Assembly (NCBI RefSeq): GCF_036057275.1 | Contig: NZ_CP107945.1 | Coordinates: 3,534,001-3,598,000, forward strand | DNA from: Streptomyces sp. NBC_00390 | Lineage (GTDB): Bacteria > Actinomycetota > Actinomycetes > Streptomycetales > Streptomycetaceae | Direction of reading: 5' to 3' | Length of the DNA: 64,000 bases | Part shown: positions 38,991 through 46,059 of the stretch, piece after piece | Position numbering within the stretch: position 1 is the stretch's first letter | Layout: every line of letters starts with the position of its first letter | The notes under the pieces: generated by a model | Database searches by the model: none | The model's input: only the letters and a program-made list of their open reading frames with translations | Told to the model about the DNA's origin: nothing | Position numbers and translations under genes: made by a program

Positions 38991-39097
38991 GTGGCAGATC
39001 TTCGCCGCCGATCGACAAACACGCAGGTCAGGCCCTCACTGTCGGGGCCTCAGGTGGCGCAATACTGCGGCAACACCATTGTGCGGAAAGCATCGGT

Positions 39098-39880
39098 ATG
39101 GTCCACCGCATGCCAGCCGAACGCCTCCGCGAGCACACCGTGCCCCTCGCCGCCGCCCGCCGGCGACGGCTGCGCGCGGACCAGGCGCGGCAGCTCGCCG
39201 ACCTGCTGCGCCACCAGGTGCGCACGGGCGGGTTCCCCGGCGGCGTCCTGCCGCTGGAGGGCGCGATCGGCGAGGAGTACCGGGTCTCGCGCAACACCGT
39301 CAGGCAGGCGCTCGACCTGCTGCGCACGGAAGGACTGATCGAACGGCAGCCGGGGGTCGGCACGGTCGTGGTGTCCGAGAAGTATCCGCACGGCCTCAAC
39401 CGGCTGCAGGGCCTCGCCGAGACCCTGCACGAACACGGCGACGTCACCAACGAAGTCCGTACCGTCGGCCCCGTCACCGCGCCCGCACCCGTGGCCCGGC
39501 GTCTGCGACTCCCGGTCCACGCCGACGTGCTCTGCATCGAACGGCTGCGCCTGCTGGGCGGACTGCCGCTCTCCCTCGACCTCACCTACGTCCCCATGGA
39601 CATCGGCGCCGACCTGATCGGCTGCGACCTGGAGAACACCGATGTCTTCCGGCTCCTCGAAACCCTGACCGGACAGCCGCTCGGCACCGCGGAGATCACA
39701 CTGGAGGCCGTCAACGCCGACGCGCACTCCGCCGCCGTGCTCCAGGCGCCGCGCGGCGCTGCCGTGCTGATGCTGGAACGGCTCACTCATCTCGCCGACG
39801 GCCGGCCGGTCGACCTTGAGTTCATCCGCTTCCGCGGCGACCGCATCACGATGAGCGGCCTGCTGCACCGGTCCTGCTGA
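39098..39880 (+). CDS. GntR/HutC-family transcriptional regulator
   Basis: A 260-residue regulator. The N-terminal winged helix-turn-helix is VSRNTVRQALDLLRTEGLIERQPGVGTVV, and residues 100-255 are a UTRA ligand-binding domain (ERLRLLGGLPLSLDLTYVP; VLMLERLTHLADGRPVDLEF). ATG at 39098 has GGAAAG before it; ATG at 39110 is an alternative. It heads the AprAB-like/ABC operon and is probably its ligand-responsive repressor. Confidence 0.9.
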   Translation: MVHRMPAERLREHTVPLAAARRRRLRADQARQLADLLRHQVRTGGFPGGVLPLEGAIGEEYRVSRNTVRQALDLLRTEGLIERQPGVGTVVVSEKYPHGLNRLQGLAETLHEHGDVTNEVRTVGPVTAPAPVARRLRLPVHADVLCIERLRLLGGLPLSLDLTYVPMDIGADLIGCDLENTDVFRLLETLTGQPLGTAEITLEAVNADAHSAAVLQAPRGAAVLMLERLTHLADGRPVDLEFIRFRGDRITMSGLLHRSC

Positions 39881-39932
39881 CCCCTCCCGACGACCCCGAC
39901 CTCCCTGCGTACCCCCCTTACTGGAGACAGCC

Positions 39933-40160
39933 ATGCCTTTGGCGCCCCAGCGGGCCGACGTGCCCGTGACCATCGACGAGTCGAAGTGCATCGACGGCTG
40001 CACGCTGTGCGTCGACATGTGCCCGCTCGACTCCCTGGCCATCAACCAGGACAACGGCAAGGCCTACATGCACGTCGACGAGTGCTGGTACTGCGGCCCG
40101 TGCGCCGCCCGCTGTCCCACCGGCGCGGTCACGGTCAACATGCCCTATCTGCTCCGCTGA
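39933..40160 (+). CDS. AprB-like two-cluster ferredoxin
   Basis: A 75-residue ferredoxin with two 4Fe-4S motifs: CIDGCTLCVDMCP and CWYCGPCAARCP. The second motif preceded by HVDE and followed by TGAVTV resembles the beta subunit of adenylylsulfate reductase (AprB), without its C-terminal tail. GGAG precedes the ATG. It probably passes electrons to or from the AprA-like flavoprotein encoded four genes downstream. The partner claim rests on family resemblance and operon context. Confidence 0.88.
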   Translation: MPLAPQRADVPVTIDESKCIDGCTLCVDMCPLDSLAINQDNGKAYMHVDECWYCGPCAARCPTGAVTVNMPYLLR

Positions 40161-40174
40161 GAGGCCCCGCTCCC

Positions 40175-41524
40175 ATGTCACGCAAGACCATTGCCCTGCT
40201 CGTCACCGCCGCGGCGCTGCTCCCCGTGACCGGCTGCGGCGGCGACGCGGACGCCGACGGCTCCCGCACGGTCACGGTGACCGTCGGCTACCAGTCCAAG
40301 ACCATCAACACCGTCACGGCGGGCACGCTGCTGCGCTCCCTCGGCTACTTCGAGGAGGAGCTCAAGAAGCGCGGCGCCAAGGACGGCACCACGTACAAGG
40401 TCGAGTGGCAGGACTACGCCACGGGCGCGCCGATCACCGCGCAGATGACCGCCGGAAAGATCGACATCGGCTCGATGGGCGACTTCCCGCTGCTGCTCAA
40501 CGCCGCCCGCGGCAAGCAGCTGAACCGGCCGACGCGGCTGGTCGCCGTGACCGGCTACAACCTGCGCGGCGGCCTCAACACCATTGTCACGCCCCCCGAT
40601 TCGAAGCTGGCCGAGCTGAAGGACCTGCGCGGCAAGAAGGTCTCGACAAGCGTCGGCTCGGCGGCCGACGGCACGCTCGTACGAGCCCTGCAACGGGCCG
40701 GCATCGATCCGCAGAAGGACATCCGCAAGCTCAACCAGCAGCCCGCGGTGGGGGCGTCGGCGCTCCAGTCCGGCAGCGCCGACGCGCTCTCGCAGTTCGT
40801 GGCCTGGCCGGGTCTGCTCGCCTTCCAGGGCCGGGCCAAGGCCCTGTACGACGGGGCCGCGCTGAACCTGCCGACGTTCCACGGAGTCACCGTGCGCGAG
40901 GACTTCGCCGAGAAGCGCCCGGCGGTGCTGGAGGACTTCCTGCGCGCACAGATCAGGGCCACGGACTATCTGCACGAGAAGCCGGTGGCGGCCGCCGAGT
41001 CGGTGGCGAAGGCGACCGGCCTGCCGGCCGAGGTGGTCTACCTCTACAACGGCGCGAACGGCATCTCCACCTTCGACCCGTCGGTCAAGCAGAAGCTGGT
41101 GTCGGCGCTGAAGCAGGACGTGCCGGTGCTGAAGTCGGCGAAGCTGGTGGGCGCGGTGGACGTGGACGGCTTCGTCGACGACCAGTACATCAAGCGGGCG
41201 TACGGCTCCGGCTACGACAAGGCCCTTGCCACCAGGCCGGCCGCGGCCCGCGCCGAGATCTGGCTCAAGGACGGGACCACCACGTCCTTCGACTCCCCCG
41301 CCGCGCTGCTCGGCCGCATCGCCGCCGGACCCGACAAGGTGCGTGCCGCGTACGTCCCGGACACCACGACGGGCACGCTGTGGTTCGCGGACAAGGCGGT
41401 GTGGGTCCTCGACGGTAAGAAGCTGCTGCCCTTCGTGACCCCGGCCGCGGCGGCCGAGTACCTCTCAGGGCACACGGGCGCGCGGACCGTCCCGTACACC
41501 GAAGCGCTCGAGCGGGCGTCATGA
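40175..41524 (+). CDS. ABC substrate-binding lipoprotein (sulfonate/nitrate type) with NosL-like C-terminal region
   Basis: A 449-residue lipoprotein with lipobox LLPVTGCGG. Residues 30 to about 355 are a SsuA/TauA-like binding fold (VTVGYQSKTINTVTAGTLLRSLGYF, MTAGKIDIGSMGDFPLLLNAA, LRGKKVSTSVGSAADGTL). The last 90 residues (TTTSFDSPAALLGRI, VRAAYVPDTTTGTLWFADKAVWVLDG, FVTPAAAAEYL) resemble the NosL fold but lack its metal-binding residues. GAGAGG precedes the ATG. The stop overlaps the permease start. Confidence 0.85.
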   Translation: MSRKTIALLVTAAALLPVTGCGGDADADGSRTVTVTVGYQSKTINTVTAGTLLRSLGYFEEELKKRGAKDGTTYKVEWQDYATGAPITAQMTAGKIDIGSMGDFPLLLNAARGKQLNRPTRLVAVTGYNLRGGLNTIVTPPDSKLAELKDLRGKKVSTSVGSAADGTLVRALQRAGIDPQKDIRKLNQQPAVGASALQSGSADALSQFVAWPGLLAFQGRAKALYDGAALNLPTFHGVTVREDFAEKRPAVLEDFLRAQIRATDYLHEKPVAAAESVAKATGLPAEVVYLYNGANGISTFDPSVKQKLVSALKQDVPVLKSAKLVGAVDVDGFVDDQYIKRAYGSGYDKALATRPAAARAEIWLKDGTTTSFDSPAALLGRIAAGPDKVRAAYVPDTTTGTLWFADKAVWVLDGKKLLPFVTPAAAAEYLSGHTGARTVPYTEALERAS

Positions 41525-42378
41525 CCGCCCGGCACGCGCTGCGGGTCCTGTCCCTGGCGGGCGCGCTCGGGCTGTGGCAGCTGCTGACCGCGCTGGACGT
41601 CAATCTGTGGCTGCGCTTCGAGCAGTTCCCGACGGTCACGGACATCGCCCGCACCTTCGGTCAGCGCGCCGGCAGCGACACGTACTGGCAGGACCTCACC
41701 GACAGCCTCACCCGTATCGTCACCGGCTTCACGCTGGCGTCGGTCGCGGGTGTGGCCGTCGGCACGGCGATCGCCCGGTCGCGGCTCGCGGCGGACCTGG
41801 TGGGCCCGGTGCTCGAAGTGCTGCGGCCCATCCCCGCGATCGCGCTGGTGCCGGTGGCGATCCTGCTCTTCCCGAGCAACGAGCAGGGCATCGTCTTCAT
41901 CACCTTCACCGCGGCGTTCTTCCCGGTCATGGTCTCCACGCGGCACGCGGTGCGCGCGCTGACCCCGGTCTGGGAGGAAGCGGTCCGCACCCTCGGCGGC
42001 GGCCGGTGGCGCGTCCTCGGTTCGGTGGTGCTGCCGGGGGCACTGCCGGGCATCTTCGGCGGGCTGTCGGTGGGCATCGGCGTCTCGTGGATCTGCGTGA
42101 TCTCGGCGGAGATGATCTCCGGCGAGTACGGGGTGGGTTACCGGACCTGGCAGGACTACACGGTCGTGGACTACCCCGGCGTGTTCGTCGGGATGGCGAC
42201 GATCGGCCTGCTGGGGTGGCTGACGTCGACGGCGGTGGAGCTGCTGGGCCGTCGGCTGACGCGATGGCTGCCGCGTACGGAGTCGGCCCCGGCGACACGA
42301 CCGGTCCGGTCGGGGGCGCGGGTTGCGCCACGTCGCGAGGCGTCGGCGGCGCGCAAGCGGGTGCGGGCAGGTGCGTAG
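41521..42378 (+). CDS. ABC transporter permease (sulfonate/nitrate/taurine type)
   Basis: A 285-residue protein with six membrane helices and the binding-protein-dependent permease motif EEAVRTLGGGRWRVLGSVVLPGALPGIFGGL (EAA loop). ATGA overlap with the lipoprotein gene gives coupling. The C-terminus after the last helix is basic. It belongs to the importer with the adjacent lipoprotein and ATPase. Confidence 0.92.
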   Translation: MTARHALRVLSLAGALGLWQLLTALDVNLWLRFEQFPTVTDIARTFGQRAGSDTYWQDLTDSLTRIVTGFTLASVAGVAVGTAIARSRLAADLVGPVLEVLRPIPAIALVPVAILLFPSNEQGIVFITFTAAFFPVMVSTRHAVRALTPVWEEAVRTLGGGRWRVLGSVVLPGALPGIFGGLSVGIGVSWICVISAEMISGEYGVGYRTWQDYTVVDYPGVFVGMATIGLLGWLTSTAVELLGRRLTRWLPRTESAPATRPVRSGARVAPRREASAARKRVRAGA

Positions 42379-42450
42379 CGCCTGCGGCGGGCGTGTTCCC
42401 TACCCGCTCTCCCCCTACAGCCTGGCGGCCGTGGGAGGTACCCATCCCGA

Positions 42451-42546
42451 ACTGGGGCTCCGCCCCAGACCTCGCGCCTCAAACGCCGGCGGGGCTGCAT
42501 TTTGTCGGCGCATCCGGCAAAAGCAGCCCGTCCGGCGATTGAGGAC
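42451..42546. repeat. Streptomyces intergenic palindromic repeat (REP-like)
   Basis: A short stem TGGGGCTCCGCCCCA (42453-42467) is followed by a long imperfect palindrome, arms near 42477-42503 and 42518-42544 containing CCTCAAACGCCGGCGGGGCT and the complement of CAATCGCCGGACGGGCTG. From memory, sequences of this type recur between genes in many Streptomyces genomes. It sits inside the operon between permease and ATPase genes. Confidence 0.75.
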
Positions 42547-42568
42547 ACTCCCCCAAGGAGGCGTAACC

Positions 42569-43339
42569 ATGACCACACCCCCCGAAACCACACTCGCCCC
42601 CACCCCCGCCCCACCCCGCGGCACCCGGCTCACCCTGCGCGGAGCACGGCTCGGGCGGCCCGGCGCCCACGTTCTCGACGGGGTCGATCTCGATGTCGTA
42701 CCGGGTGAGATCCTCACCGTCGTCGGACCGTCCGGATGCGGCAAGTCCACCCTGCTCCGCACCCTCGCCGGGCTGCTCCCGCCCCTCGGGGGCGAGGTCG
42801 CGCAGGACGGTGAGCCCATCACCGCCCCCCGTGCCGACCGCGCGCTCGTCTTCCAGGACGATGCTCTTCTGCCGTGGCGCACCGTGCGCGCCAACGTCGA
42901 ACTGCCCCTCGCCATCAGGGGCGTCGCACGCCCCACGCGGCGGGCCGTCGCCGAGAAGTGGCTGGAGCGGGTCGGCCTCGCCGGGCACGGGACGAAGTTC
43001 CCGCACAAGATCTCCGGCGGCCAGCGCCAGCGCGTCCAGCTCGCCCGCGCCCTCGCGGGTGAGCCGCGGGCCGTGCTGATGGACGAGCCGTTCGGGGCGC
43101 TGGACGCCCAGACCCGGGCCGGCATGCAGCAGTTGCTGGTCGATGTGTTGCGCGGTACCGGCGCCACCGTCGTCTTTGTCACGCACGACGTGGACGAGGC
43201 GCTCTTCCTCGCCGATCGCATCGCGCTCCTCGGCACCGGCCGTGTCCTCGACGTACCCCGCCCGCGCGACCGCGAGGCCCATGGCGACCCCGCCACGGTC
43301 GCCGTGCGCCGCACCGTCCTCGAATCCCTCGGTACCTGA
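42569..43339 (+). CDS. ABC transporter ATP-binding protein (sulfonate/nitrate type)
   Basis: A 256-residue ATPase: GPSGCGKSTLLRTLAGL is Walker A, FQDDALLPWRTV the Q-loop typical of nitrate/sulfonate/taurine importers, ISGGQRQRVQLARAL the signature, VLMDEPFGALDA Walker B and THDVDEAL the H-loop. AAGGAGG precedes the ATG at 42569, so it has its own strong start after the repeat-bearing gap. Confidence 0.94.
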   Translation: MTTPPETTLAPTPAPPRGTRLTLRGARLGRPGAHVLDGVDLDVVPGEILTVVGPSGCGKSTLLRTLAGLLPPLGGEVAQDGEPITAPRADRALVFQDDALLPWRTVRANVELPLAIRGVARPTRRAVAEKWLERVGLAGHGTKFPHKISGGQRQRVQLARALAGEPRAVLMDEPFGALDAQTRAGMQQLLVDVLRGTGATVVFVTHDVDEALFLADRIALLGTGRVLDVPRPRDREAHGDPATVAVRRTVLESLGT

Positions 43340-43353
43340 GAGGCAGCAAACCC

Positions 43354-46059
43354 ATGGACATCCCCTCCCTCGCGGACGCGGACGAGCTCTCCTGCGACGT
43401 CCTCGTCATCGGTGGCGGTACGGCCGGGACCATGGCCGCCTTGACCGCAGCCGAACACGGCGCGAACGTCCTCCTGCTGGAGAAGGCGCACGTACGGCAC
43501 TCCGGCGCGCTCGCCATGGGCATGGACGGCGTCAACAACGCCGTCATCCCGGGCCGGGCCGAACCGGACGACTACGTCGCCGAGATCACCCGCGCCAACG
43601 ACGGCATCGTCGACCAGTCCACGGTCCGCCAGACCGCGACCCGCGGCTTCGCGATGGTGCGGCGCCTGGAGTCGTACGGAGTGAAGTTCGAGAAGGACGA
43701 GCACGGCGAGTACGCGGTCCGCCAGGTGCACCGCTCGGGCTCGTACGTGCTGCCCATGCCCGAGGGCAAGGACGTCAAGAAGGTCCTCTACCGGCAGCTG
43801 CGCCGCCGTGAGATGCGCGAGCGCATCCGGATCGAGAACCGGGTGATGCCGGTGCGTGTGCTCACGGCGGACGGCAGGGCGGTGGGCGCGGCCGGGTTCA
43901 ACACCCGCACCGGGCAGTTCGTGACCGTCCGGGCGGGTGCCGTGATCCTCGCGACGGGCGCTGCCGGACGGCTCGGCCTGCCCGCGTCCGGCTATCTCTA
44001 CGGCACCTACGAGAACCCCACCAACGCCGGCGACGGCTACGCCATGGCGTACCACGCGGGTGCCGAGCTCACCGGTATCGAGTGCTTCCAGATCAACCCG
44101 CTGATCAAGGACTACAACGGCCCGGCGTGCGCCTATGTCGCCAACCCCTTCGGCGCGTACCAGGTCAACCGGCACGGTGAACGCTTCGTCGACTCGGACT
44201 ACTGGTCCGGCCAGATGATGGCCGAGTTCGCCGAGGAGCTGGCTTCGGAGCGCGGCCCGGTCTATCTGAAGCTGAGCCATCTGCCGGAGGAGTCGGTCGC
44301 TTCGCTGGAGGGGATTCTGCACACCACGGAACGGCCCACGCGCGGCACGTTCCATGCGGGCCGCGGGCACGACTACCGCACCCATGACATCGAGATGCAC
44401 ATCTCGGAGATCGGCCTGTGCGGGGGCCATTCGGCGTCGGGCGTCCGGGTCGACGACCATGCCCGCACCACCGTGCCCCGCCTGTACGCCGCGGGGGACC
44501 TGGCCTGCGTACCGCACAACTACATGATCGGGGCCTTCGTCTTCGGCGATCTCGCGGGCGAGGACGCGGCCCGGTACCGCCCGTACGAGGGCGAGTTGCC
44601 GCCCGGCCAGCTGCGCGAGGCCCACGAGCTGGTCTACCGGCCGCTGCGCCACCCGGACGGACCGCCGCAGCCCCAGGTCGAGTACAAGCTCCGCCGCTTC
44701 GTGAACGACTATGTGGCACCCCCCAAGTCGGGATCCCGGCTGTCCCTCGCAGTGGAGCACTTCGAGCGGATGCGCACCGAGATCGCGGAGATGGGTGCCA
44801 CAACCGCGCACGAGCTGATGCGCTGCGCGGAGGTGAGCTTCATCCGGGACTGCGCCGAGATGGCGGCGCGTTCGTCGCTGGCGCGGACGGAGTCGCGCTG
44901 GGGCCTGTACCACGAGCGCACGGACCATCCGCAGCGTGACGACGAGGGCTGGCTGCACCACCTCGATCTGCACAAGTCCCCCTCCGGCGCGATGGAGTTC
45001 ACCGCCCGCCCGGTGGCCCCCTACCTCGTCCCGGTCGACGAGTTCACGCCGGTGGGCGGCCCGTCCCGGCATCTCGGCGAGGTCCGGCTCGAGCAGGTCG
45101 CGACGGCAGGCCCGCGTGAGGTCGCGCCGACCGGATCCCGTATCGCCGCGCCCGTACGTGCCGAGGCGCAGGCCGCGACCGCCTCCCCGCGCATCCTGGA
45201 GCTGGTGTCCCTCGCCGACGAGCAGCCTGAACTCGCCGTGCTCGCCCCCTATTTGGCGGACCCTGACCCGGCGGTCCGCCGGGCGGCGGTCGCCACGCTC
45301 ACGGAGACCACCCCGGACGGCACCGGACCCGCACTGGCCGCCGCGCTGGCGGACCCGGACATGGGGGTGCGGGCAGCGGCAGGGGAATCGCTGCGCGAGC
45401 TGGTGGAGACGCTGCCGCCGGAGCCGGCACTGCGGGAGCCGCTCGTCGCAGCCCTGTCGTCCGGTGACCCGGCGGTCCGTACGGCCGCACTGGATGTCCT
45501 GCGCGCCCTGAAGCTGGCCGGTCCCGCCGCATACTCGCCCGTCCTCGGCGACCCGGACATCGGCGTGCGGATCGCGGCGGTCCGTGCCCTGGTCTCGGTC
45601 GACGCCGTCGAGGCGCTGGAGGCGGCCGTGGCCGACCCCGCCCGCGAGGTCCGCGTCGCGACGGCGAAGGGCCTGGCGGCGGTGACCGACCCGCGCGTGC
45701 TCGCACCGCTCACGCTCTTGGTCCGCGACGACGACGTCCTTGTGCGCGCGGCCGCCTTCGAGGCTCTCGGCACCACGGGGTGCCCCCCGGAGCTCGCGGA
45801 GGCGGCAGTGACAGCACTGGGGGACGCGGCCTGGCAGGTCCGTGCCGGGGCGGCCACCGCCCTCGGCGCGACCGCCGGCCTGGCGGTTCCCGCCCTGGCC
45901 AAGGCGCTCGGCGACGCCAACGCCGATGTGCGCAAGGCTGCGGTGCTGGCCCTGCTCCGGCACACCTCCTCCGAGGACGCCCGGGCCGCCCTGGCCTCGG
46001 CGGTCCACGACCCGGACGCGGATGTCCGGGCGTACGCGGGCCGGGTCAACACCAGGTGA
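43354..46059 (+). CDS. AprA-like flavoprotein with C-terminal HEAT repeats
   Basis: A 901-residue protein. Residues 1-590 are a fumarate reductase/adenylylsulfate reductase-type FAD protein: CDVLVIGGGTAGTMAALTAAEHG is the FAD dinucleotide site, HSGALAMGMDGVNNAVIPG and PHNYMIGAFVFGDLAGEDAA resemble AprA more than succinate dehydrogenase. Residues 634-901 are about nine HEAT/PBS-lyase repeats, each with a D-x-x-V-R-x-A-A core (DPAVRRAAV, DMGVRAAAG, DIGVRIAAV, NADVRKAAV). GAGAGG precedes the ATG. The reaction is unknown; an AprAB-like redox step on an imported sulfur compound is inference. Confidence 0.88.
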   Translation: MDIPSLADADELSCDVLVIGGGTAGTMAALTAAEHGANVLLLEKAHVRHSGALAMGMDGVNNAVIPGRAEPDDYVAEITRANDGIVDQSTVRQTATRGFAMVRRLESYGVKFEKDEHGEYAVRQVHRSGSYVLPMPEGKDVKKVLYRQLRRREMRERIRIENRVMPVRVLTADGRAVGAAGFNTRTGQFVTVRAGAVILATGAAGRLGLPASGYLYGTYENPTNAGDGYAMAYHAGAELTGIECFQINPLIKDYNGPACAYVANPFGAYQVNRHGERFVDSDYWSGQMMAEFAEELASERGPVYLKLSHLPEESVASLEGILHTTERPTRGTFHAGRGHDYRTHDIEMHISEIGLCGGHSASGVRVDDHARTTVPRLYAAGDLACVPHNYMIGAFVFGDLAGEDAARYRPYEGELPPGQLREAHELVYRPLRHPDGPPQPQVEYKLRRFVNDYVAPPKSGSRLSLAVEHFERMRTEIAEMGATTAHELMRCAEVSFIRDCAEMAARSSLARTESRWGLYHERTDHPQRDDEGWLHHLDLHKSPSGAMEFTARPVAPYLVPVDEFTPVGGPSRHLGEVRLEQVATAGPREVAPTGSRIAAPVRAEAQAATASPRILELVSLADEQPELAVLAPYLADPDPAVRRAAVATLTETTPDGTGPALAAALADPDMGVRAAAGESLRELVETLPPEPALREPLVAALSSGDPAVRTAALDVLRALKLAGPAAYSPVLGDPDIGVRIAAVRALVSVDAVEALEAAVADPAREVRVATAKGLAAVTDPRVLAPLTLLVRDDDVLVRAAAFEALGTTGCPPELAEAAVTALGDAAWQVRAGAATALGATAGLAVPALAKALGDANADVRKAAVLALLRHTSSEDARAALASAVHDPDADVRAYAGRVNTR

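Follow-up and report, generated by a model that had tools for sequence, protein, structure and literature searches.

In Pseudomonas, the atsRBC genes encode an SsuA-type sulfate-ester importer and lie beside the gene of either the arylsulfatase AtsA or the dioxygenase AtsK, depending on the strain. To our knowledge, the known sulfatases, AtsK and others included, yield sulfate, which needs activation by ATP before it can be reduced. Sulfate esters and sulfonates are named as the major organic forms of sulfur in soil in the available excerpt of PMC4267179, which also describes AsfRABC of Pseudomonas putida S-313, an arylsulfonate desulfurization system with a regulator, a reductase, a ferredoxin, and an ABC binding protein. 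For the reductases of adenylylsulfate (APS) and of its 3'-phosphorylated form (PAPS), the proposed chemistry is an attack of flavin N5 on the sulfuryl sulfur, with sulfite as the product (PMC10322725, in the part of that text available). Here, we analyze an operon of Streptomyces sp. NBC_00390 (genome of 8.69 Mb) at positions 39098-46059 of a 64,000-nt stretch, hereafter the window (contig NZ_CP107945.1, positions 3,534,001 to 3,598,000 of the forward strand). Its six genes, all on the + strand, encode in this order a GntR-family regulator, a ferredoxin (Fd), a substrate-binding protein (SBP), a permease, and an ATPase, followed by a flavin adenine dinucleotide (FAD) protein (Fp); an earlier note, made from the sequence alone, had described one operon of six genes in this order, and all six are present where it placed them. 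We tentatively propose, with somewhat less than even confidence, that this operon is a sulfur-acquisition system in which an imported sulfate ester is cleaved reductively by Fp-Fd to sulfite.

The locus shares features with each of these systems. As in the dissimilatory APS reductase AprAB and the PAPS reductase of Methanothermococcus thermolithotrophicus (8a8o), an FAD subunit goes with a two-cluster ferredoxin subunit, the flavoproteins form neighboring clades, and Asn74 is kept; in contrast, Fp is 28-31% identical to these proteins, most of the APS-site residues compared are replaced, Fp-Fd is usually partnered with an importer and with HEAT repeats, and Fd has 75 residues versus 150-166 in the solved AprB chains and 104 in 8a8o_C. 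AsfRABC has a similar list of parts for organic sulfur, but the regulator is of the LysR type there and of the GntR type here, and no HEAT protein is mentioned for AsfRABC in the excerpt of PMC4267179. With atsRBC, the operon has in common an SsuA-type importer next to a variable desulfating enzyme, which is hydrolytic or oxygenolytic in that case and would be a flavin/iron-sulfur pair in this one. Database family names exist for Fp (PRK13800/PRK08275); the putative role in sulfur metabolism is proposed here. In the open-licence literature, no description of the function of the operon or of a reductive sulfatase was found by title or start of abstract, which is weak evidence of absence, and the available excerpt of PMC13352529 mentions neither ferredoxin nor GntR nor fumarate reductase.

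Fp (901 residues, gene at 43354-46059) is a fusion: Pfam FAD_binding_2 and Succ_DH_flav_C match residues 1-560, while HEAT repeats match residues 600-900 and make up about 300 C-terminal residues. It belongs to the family NF010374/PRK13800 (1615.7 bits over residues 1-898, cut-off 1196), and the whole protein also exceeds the cut-off of NF006131/PRK08275 (853 bits, cut-off 587). It stays below the cut-offs for AprA (TIGR02061, 127.8 vs. 641.75 bits), for adenylylsulfate reductase PRK06854 (274 vs. 557 bits), and for the flavoprotein of succinate dehydrogenase/fumarate reductase (TIGR01812, 145.2 vs. 567.3 bits). The closest solved chain by profile is 8a8o_A (E 4.8e-83, 282.7 bits), the alpha subunit of the APS reductase (APSR)-like PAPS reductase of M. 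thermolithotrophicus, followed by the AprA of Archaeoglobus fulgidus. In a maximum-likelihood tree of 25 rows, the 16 Fp rows, which come from Actinobacteria, Proteobacteria, and Cyanobacteria, are monophyletic (support 97/97) and join the four AprA/PAPS-reductase rows (96/94). Outside this group lie three proteins of the window's genome, i.e., a succinate dehydrogenase (L002), a succinate dehydrogenase-type protein (L004), and an L-aspartate oxidase (L003), as well as a protein of strain CH34 (L146, below the cut-offs of the families listed) and a candidate AsfA. A 40-residue fragment in the alignment (L144) and another CH34 row (L145) were left out of this tree, for which the tool issued warnings of long-branch attraction and of an unusual composition of four rows. 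Since the family members group with AprA, the names of NF010374 and NF006131, "fumarate reductase/succinate dehydrogenase flavoprotein subunit," are misleading. The remaining 15 members of the Fp alignment (A1) share 56-79% identity with the window's Fp over the FAD part, where extended blocks are invariant; this pattern suggests a single enzyme with a single conserved substrate, neither APS nor PAPS.

At the positions that we take to form the APS site, with the roles that we presume for them (A. fulgidus AprA numbering), Fp carries different, family-invariant residues in five of the eight compared: Tyr95 is replaced by Glu, Gln145 by Val, Trp234 by Tyr, Arg265 by Leu, and Gly274 by Cys, each in 16/16 aligned members. 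Asn74 is kept in all 16. The Leu278 position is occupied by Ala, Thr, or Gly; that of Glu141 is not safely placed, as it adjoins a five-residue insertion and aligns differently between alignments, and His398 lies beyond the printed AprA alignment, the invariant GHS of the Fp family at 358-360 being aligned with the GHG of 8a8o. Among these residues, Gln145 is named as an AprA site residue in the excerpt of PMC10322725. With Arg265 replaced by Leu, the sulfuryl group would have to be held in another way. Judged by its sequence, Fp is AprA-like yet no APS reductase. The earlier note had called the FAD protein AprA-like and had considered classical APS reduction unlikely, which agrees with these results; it had also suggested the comparison of active-site residues, and it had missed the HEAT C-terminus. 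Clustering with ordinary succinate dehydrogenases, which it had named as one finding that would speak against it, was not observed: Fp groups with AprA and PAPS reductase instead, and its identification as a succinate dehydrogenase is rejected on the TIGR01812 score and the placement in the tree.

Two of the AprA-side rows, from the phylum of the window (L142 and L143), exceed the PRK06854 cut-off and adjoin a sulfite-reductase-like gene. They belong to compact clusters (L142:5461-13028 and L143:6432-9671) of a sulfite-reductase-like gene, an APSR-type flavoprotein, and a ferredoxin, to which the L142 cluster adds ATP sulfurylase and a NitT/TauT-type importer. These clusters look like assimilatory sulfate reduction by an APSR/PAPSR-type enzyme. 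We count the neighbors of these two relatives in favor of the proposed reading of the Fp operon.

The three importer proteins all belong to the SsuABC/TauABC superfamily. The SBP differs from the SsuA/TauA type by a longer C-terminal part and scores below the cut-off of the SsuA family (TIGR01728, 138.2 bits, cut-off 163.5) and of the taurine family as well. At a coverage of at least 80%, this long SBP was found in 41 plasmid records, 39 of which carry Fp within 8 kb; these are 39 of the 48 plasmid records with Fp. The two Fp-less plasmids, Gordonia amicalis pCP113 and a Paraburkholderia plasmid, carry a PF00884 sulfatase near the importer, and their GntR, SBP, permease, and ATPase are 35-57% identical to those of the window. 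Among 246 genomes of the class, 29 encode the SBP at a total of 31 loci: 27 with Fp, 3 with a sulfatase, and 1 with sugar enzymes (23 loci were examined for neighbors and the other eight classed by Fp coordinates, three being seen in full, including the window). Each of the three sulfatase-type loci also has GntR, a maturase (formylglycine-generating enzyme, FGE), and a SulP transporter, while two sulfatase queries detected no sulfatase in the 19 Fp-type loci scanned. All five sulfatases contain CTPTR, and none has an evident signal peptide at its start (judged by eye), so that the ester would have to be imported. In a tree of 20 Fp-type and 5 sulfatase-type SBPs, a subset of those found, four actinobacterial sulfatase-type proteins group with a single Fp-type protein (97/95), and the sulfatase-type protein of Paraburkholderia groups with an Fp-type protein of Variovorax (91/83, within a 99/95 clade). 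With this topology, the partner must have been exchanged at least twice, once in Actinobacteria and once in Proteobacteria (5%-95% bootstrap range = 2). The simplest reading of the shared importer would be a sulfate ester that is cleaved either hydrolytically or reductively.

Of note, the C-terminal part of the SBP is weakly NosL-like in 10 of 18 members of another alignment (A6), with a best E of 1.3e-6; the window's SBP is not among the ten.

Fd scores 34.3 bits against TIGR02060 aprB (cut-off 135.65) and contains two 4Fe-4S motifs, whose eight cluster cysteines are all invariant in 16 aligned sequences. Its association with Fp is tight in plasmids: all 48 records with a near-complete AprA-like part have Fd at most 3.5 kb from Fp, and conversely, Fp is present in 48/48 records in which Fd is matched at a coverage of at least 80%. 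Excluded from these counts were three records whose Fp match spanned 27-32% of the query and in which no Fd match was seen, and one weak Fd match to a Bacteroidota hydrogenase gene (76% coverage). Annotated neighborhoods were viewed for 15 plasmid loci, chosen from the 48 for spread of taxa and incompletely annotated. Among the 14 non-actinobacterial ones, the Fp gene adjoins the Fd gene in 13, the exception being Nostoc, and HEAT is a gene of its own in 14 of the 15, including those viewed from Proteobacteria and Cyanobacteria; the HEAT part of Fp is 24-34% identical to such stand-alone proteins near Fp/Fd. A single open frame covers Fp and HEAT at 19 of the 21 other actinobacterial loci that were checked (L187 was outside this check). 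The recurrent proximity to Fp in plasmid and actinobacterial loci indicates that HEAT, importer, and ferredoxin belong together.

Two actinobacterial loci (L185 and L194) have Fp and HEAT as separate neighboring frames in a different gene order, an arrangement that may represent a state before the fusion.

Closer to the window, 75 of 80 related loci (79 of the 80 from Streptomyces and one from Streptantibioticus) show the full operon in the same order, and the median identities range from 74% (SBP) to 95% (Fd). Alignment A4 comprises the 15 loci that passed a start/length filter among 74, the other six of the 80 having been skipped, and alignment A5 comprises 39/80. Three of the five deviating loci have no visible GntR, one of them (L032) despite room, another has only ATPase and Fp on a 4.3-kb contig, and the last has only GntR, ATPase, and Fp. 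From the Fp family score and the gene order kept in these 75 loci, the operon is far beyond chance. The operon parts also recur together in Proteobacteria and Cyanobacteria. Fp exceeds the family cut-off in 8 of 296 genomes in an even draw of the phylum that includes the window's genome, and the system is therefore accessory. In one actinobacterial genome (G288, L141:7818-8982), frame-broken pieces of Fp were seen, no other operon gene being detected in the surrounding 18 kb, an apparent decay of the system.

Other neighbors bear on the reaction. A DUF971/GBBH-type or Mrp-type gene, which we take to be linked to iron-sulfur assembly, lies near Fp in 10/15 annotated loci, and a gene of the sulfite-exporter family (TauE/SafE) in 4/15, so that the product of Fp-Fd may be sulfite. 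In Methylobacterium radiotolerans, genes for FdxA and ferredoxin-NADP reductase adjoin the system, as do genes for FdxA and a GltD-like oxidoreductase in Acidithiobacillus caldus, which suggests an electron flow from NAD(P)H via ferredoxin to Fp. The claims of the earlier note on physiology can be reconsidered in this light. The co-occurrence search that it proposed found a conserved neighborhood, where an unconserved one would have spoken against it, and its coupling of a dedicated sulfonate-type importer with an AprAB-like pair is upheld. The split of that pair around the importer is true of the window and turns out to be one lineage's order among several. As for the imported sulfur-containing or other anionic substrate, a sulfur oxyanion remains probable, with a sulfate ester a better lead than a sulfonate because relatives of the importer sit with sulfatases. 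The note had left open whether this substrate is oxidized or reduced by the flavin/iron-sulfur enzyme; reduction is probable, since genes of an NAD(P)H-to-ferredoxin chain adjoin the system in two organisms.

We infer the substrate class, the reductive direction, the sulfite product, and the roles of HEAT and GntR as follows. The SBP, permease, and ATPase would import an organic compound carrying a sulfate ester (R-O-SO3-) or a similar sulfuryl group. In the cytoplasm, the AprB-like Fd would pass low-potential electrons to the FAD of the AprA-like Fp, whose reduced flavin would attack the sulfur; R-OH would leave, and sulfite would be released for sulfite reductase, which at least one of the two NIR_SIR genes of the window's genome may encode. 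The HEAT part would serve as a scaffold or partner-binding part, and GntR would sense the compound or a product and switch the operon, perhaps via an upstream inverted repeat. Because flavin N5 attack has already been proposed for APS/PAPS reductases, organosulfate reduction needs no new type of reaction step. A shade more tentatively still, Fp-Fd could constitute a sulfatase of a new mechanistic class: an organosulfate reductase related to APS reductases, with flavin and iron-sulfur clusters and with ferredoxin as the electron donor, that makes sulfite directly from an ester delivered by the importer.

Several observations weigh against reductive cleavage of an ester. No SBP was seen within 8 kb of Fp in nine of the 48 plasmid loci. 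Sulfonates, nitrate, and thiamine precursors are the best-known substrates of the importer superfamily, and two genomes (G050 and G419) carry both Fp-type and sulfatase-type versions at different loci, so that the ligands of the two types need not be identical. A related importer at L196:233-8689 shares its tight operon with a melibiase/GH31-like protein, a galactokinase-like kinase, a glycosyltransferase, and an MFS protein, whereas sulfatase and Fp are both absent; the ligand may thus vary. No TauE/SafE gene was detected at the 19 actinobacterial Fp loci scanned for it, luciferase-type (LLM-type) monooxygenase genes, which would suit sulfonates, are found near some loci, and the NIR_SIR match cannot separate sulfite from nitrite reductase. 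The Leu found in place of Arg265 in all 16 aligned members counts on the same side. AlphaFold2 gave a mean predicted local distance difference test (pLDDT) score of 53.1 for full Fp with 16 sequences, the HEAT part alone being well predicted and the catalytic part unusable, and an unusable 47.5 for the AprA-like part with 40 sequences.

Among the alternatives, a sulfonate (C-SO3-) as the imported compound fares best, even if we regard it as unlikely; Fp-Fd would then cleave it reductively to sulfite or supply electrons to a separate oxygenase, as proposed for AsfAB in the use of arylsulfonates. This would agree with the SsuA/TauA-like SBP, with the parts list similar to that of AsfRABC (regulator, reductase, ferredoxin, and binding protein in the excerpt of PMC4267179), with the LLM-type genes, and with TauE/SafE near Fp, as sulfite could come from sulfonates too. 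However, no oxygenase is constant among the 15 annotated loci viewed, and the two exchanges of enzyme for sulfatase point to an ester. In addition, the candidate AsfA of C. metallidurans CH34 (Rmet_4334) is 25.3% identical to Fp and falls outside the Fp and AprA group, though on a very long branch; its exact position is unsure, since several outer branches are long and the tool gave its warning. The identification of this gene, at 928213-929862 of the unannotated record NC_007974, as Rmet_4334 is indirect, on the grounds of an adjoining ferredoxin gene and of a gene numbering that fits when counted from one of two squalene-hopene cyclase genes. Orthology with AsfAB, considered first on the matching parts list, gained no support from the low identity and the tree, within the limits set by this indirect identification and the long branch.

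It is more improbable that Fp-Fd catalyzes an oxidation or has a non-sulfur moiety of the compound as its target, as a dehydrogenase or ene-reductase, with the sulfur released by other enzymes. The wider superfamily does include fumarate reductase, succinate dehydrogenase, and aspartate oxidase, the AprA Arg265 position is Leu, and one importer relative sits with sugar enzymes; against this, the nearest characterized relatives act on sulfuryl groups, the dedicated two-cluster Fd and the NAD(P)H-to-ferredoxin genes of the two organisms point to reduction, and it is a sulfatase that can replace Fp-Fd beside the importer. That Fp-Fd is a true APS or PAPS reductase, as its best PDB match might suggest, is highly improbable given the low TIGR02061 and PRK06854 scores, the five APS-site residues replaced in all 16 members, and ATP sulfurylase not being annotated in the 15 loci viewed, whose annotation is incomplete.

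If the proposed reductive cleavage of sulfate esters is correct, bacteria would have a second, reductive way of obtaining sulfur from imported esters, leading directly to sulfite and thus cheaper, as it bypasses the ATP-dependent activation of sulfate. It would also explain an enzyme family of at least three phyla that is now named after fumarate reductase, and would mean that the same importer lineage has swapped this enzyme and the classical formylglycine sulfatase at least twice. Even if the substrate is a sulfonate, a relative of APS reductase would serve organosulfur use in mostly aerobic-living organisms.

The features of the operon are collected in Table 1. Upstream of the GntR gene, an element related to the inverted repeat listed there, with at most six substitutions, precedes GntR in 73 of 77 regions, the window included. 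The core of the repeat occurs once in the window (0.01 expected) and, at up to three mismatches, at a single site in the whole genome, versus none for a reversed-pattern control. Of 34 other loci, four contain a looser dyad pattern, all of them from the window's genus (4 of 6 such loci), and the pattern is absent from the 28 loci of other genera. No exact palindrome upstream of GntR is common to more than 2 of the 77 regions. This repeat is thus a possible GntR operator.

Table 1. Features of the operon and its upstream region (positions in the window).
Feature	Position	Strand	Basis or remark
Imperfect inverted repeat GGTGGCGCAATACTGCGGCAACACC, conserved, upstream of GntR gene	39053..39077	+	Candidate GntR operator
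GntR-family regulator, HutC/UTRA type, 260 aa	39098..39880	+	PF00392 and PF07702 above cut-off
Fd, AprB-like 2x[4Fe-4S] ferredoxin, 75 aa	39933..40160	+	Fer4_7, E 3.5e-10
SBP, substrate-binding lipoprotein, long NMT1/SsuA type, 449 aa	40175..41524	+	PF09084, E 8.8e-14
ABC permease, 285 aa	41521..42378	+	PF00528, E 3.1e-19
ABC ATPase, ~258 aa, start codon uncertain	42563..43339	+	PF00005, E 6.3e-31
Fp, AprA-like FAD part, residues 1-569	43354..45060	+	PF00890 and PF02910
Fp, linker and HEAT-repeat part, residues 570-901	45061..46059	+	PF13646, E 2.9e-30

The statement of the earlier note that no ATP sulfurylase or PAPS genes lie nearby was looked at in the immediate flanks of the operon only. 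The flanking frames scanned look unrelated to it, with an S15-type peptidase upstream and, on the opposite strand downstream, proton-antiporter/NADH-dehydrogenase-type proteins.

A few further loci concern the importer family. In an incomplete genome (L223:1-7794), a broken long SBP gene, a permease, and an ATPase are accompanied by SCO1-like and luciferase-like genes and by a divergent TauE/SafE gene; given this locus and the sugar-enzyme operon at L196, the family may have further partners. On plasmids of A. caldus (L151 and NC_010600), an ISL3-type transposase gene abuts or overlaps the SBP gene. SBP and GntR are also present on plasmid pLAtc3 of the same species, with no Fp gene annotated in the stretch viewed.

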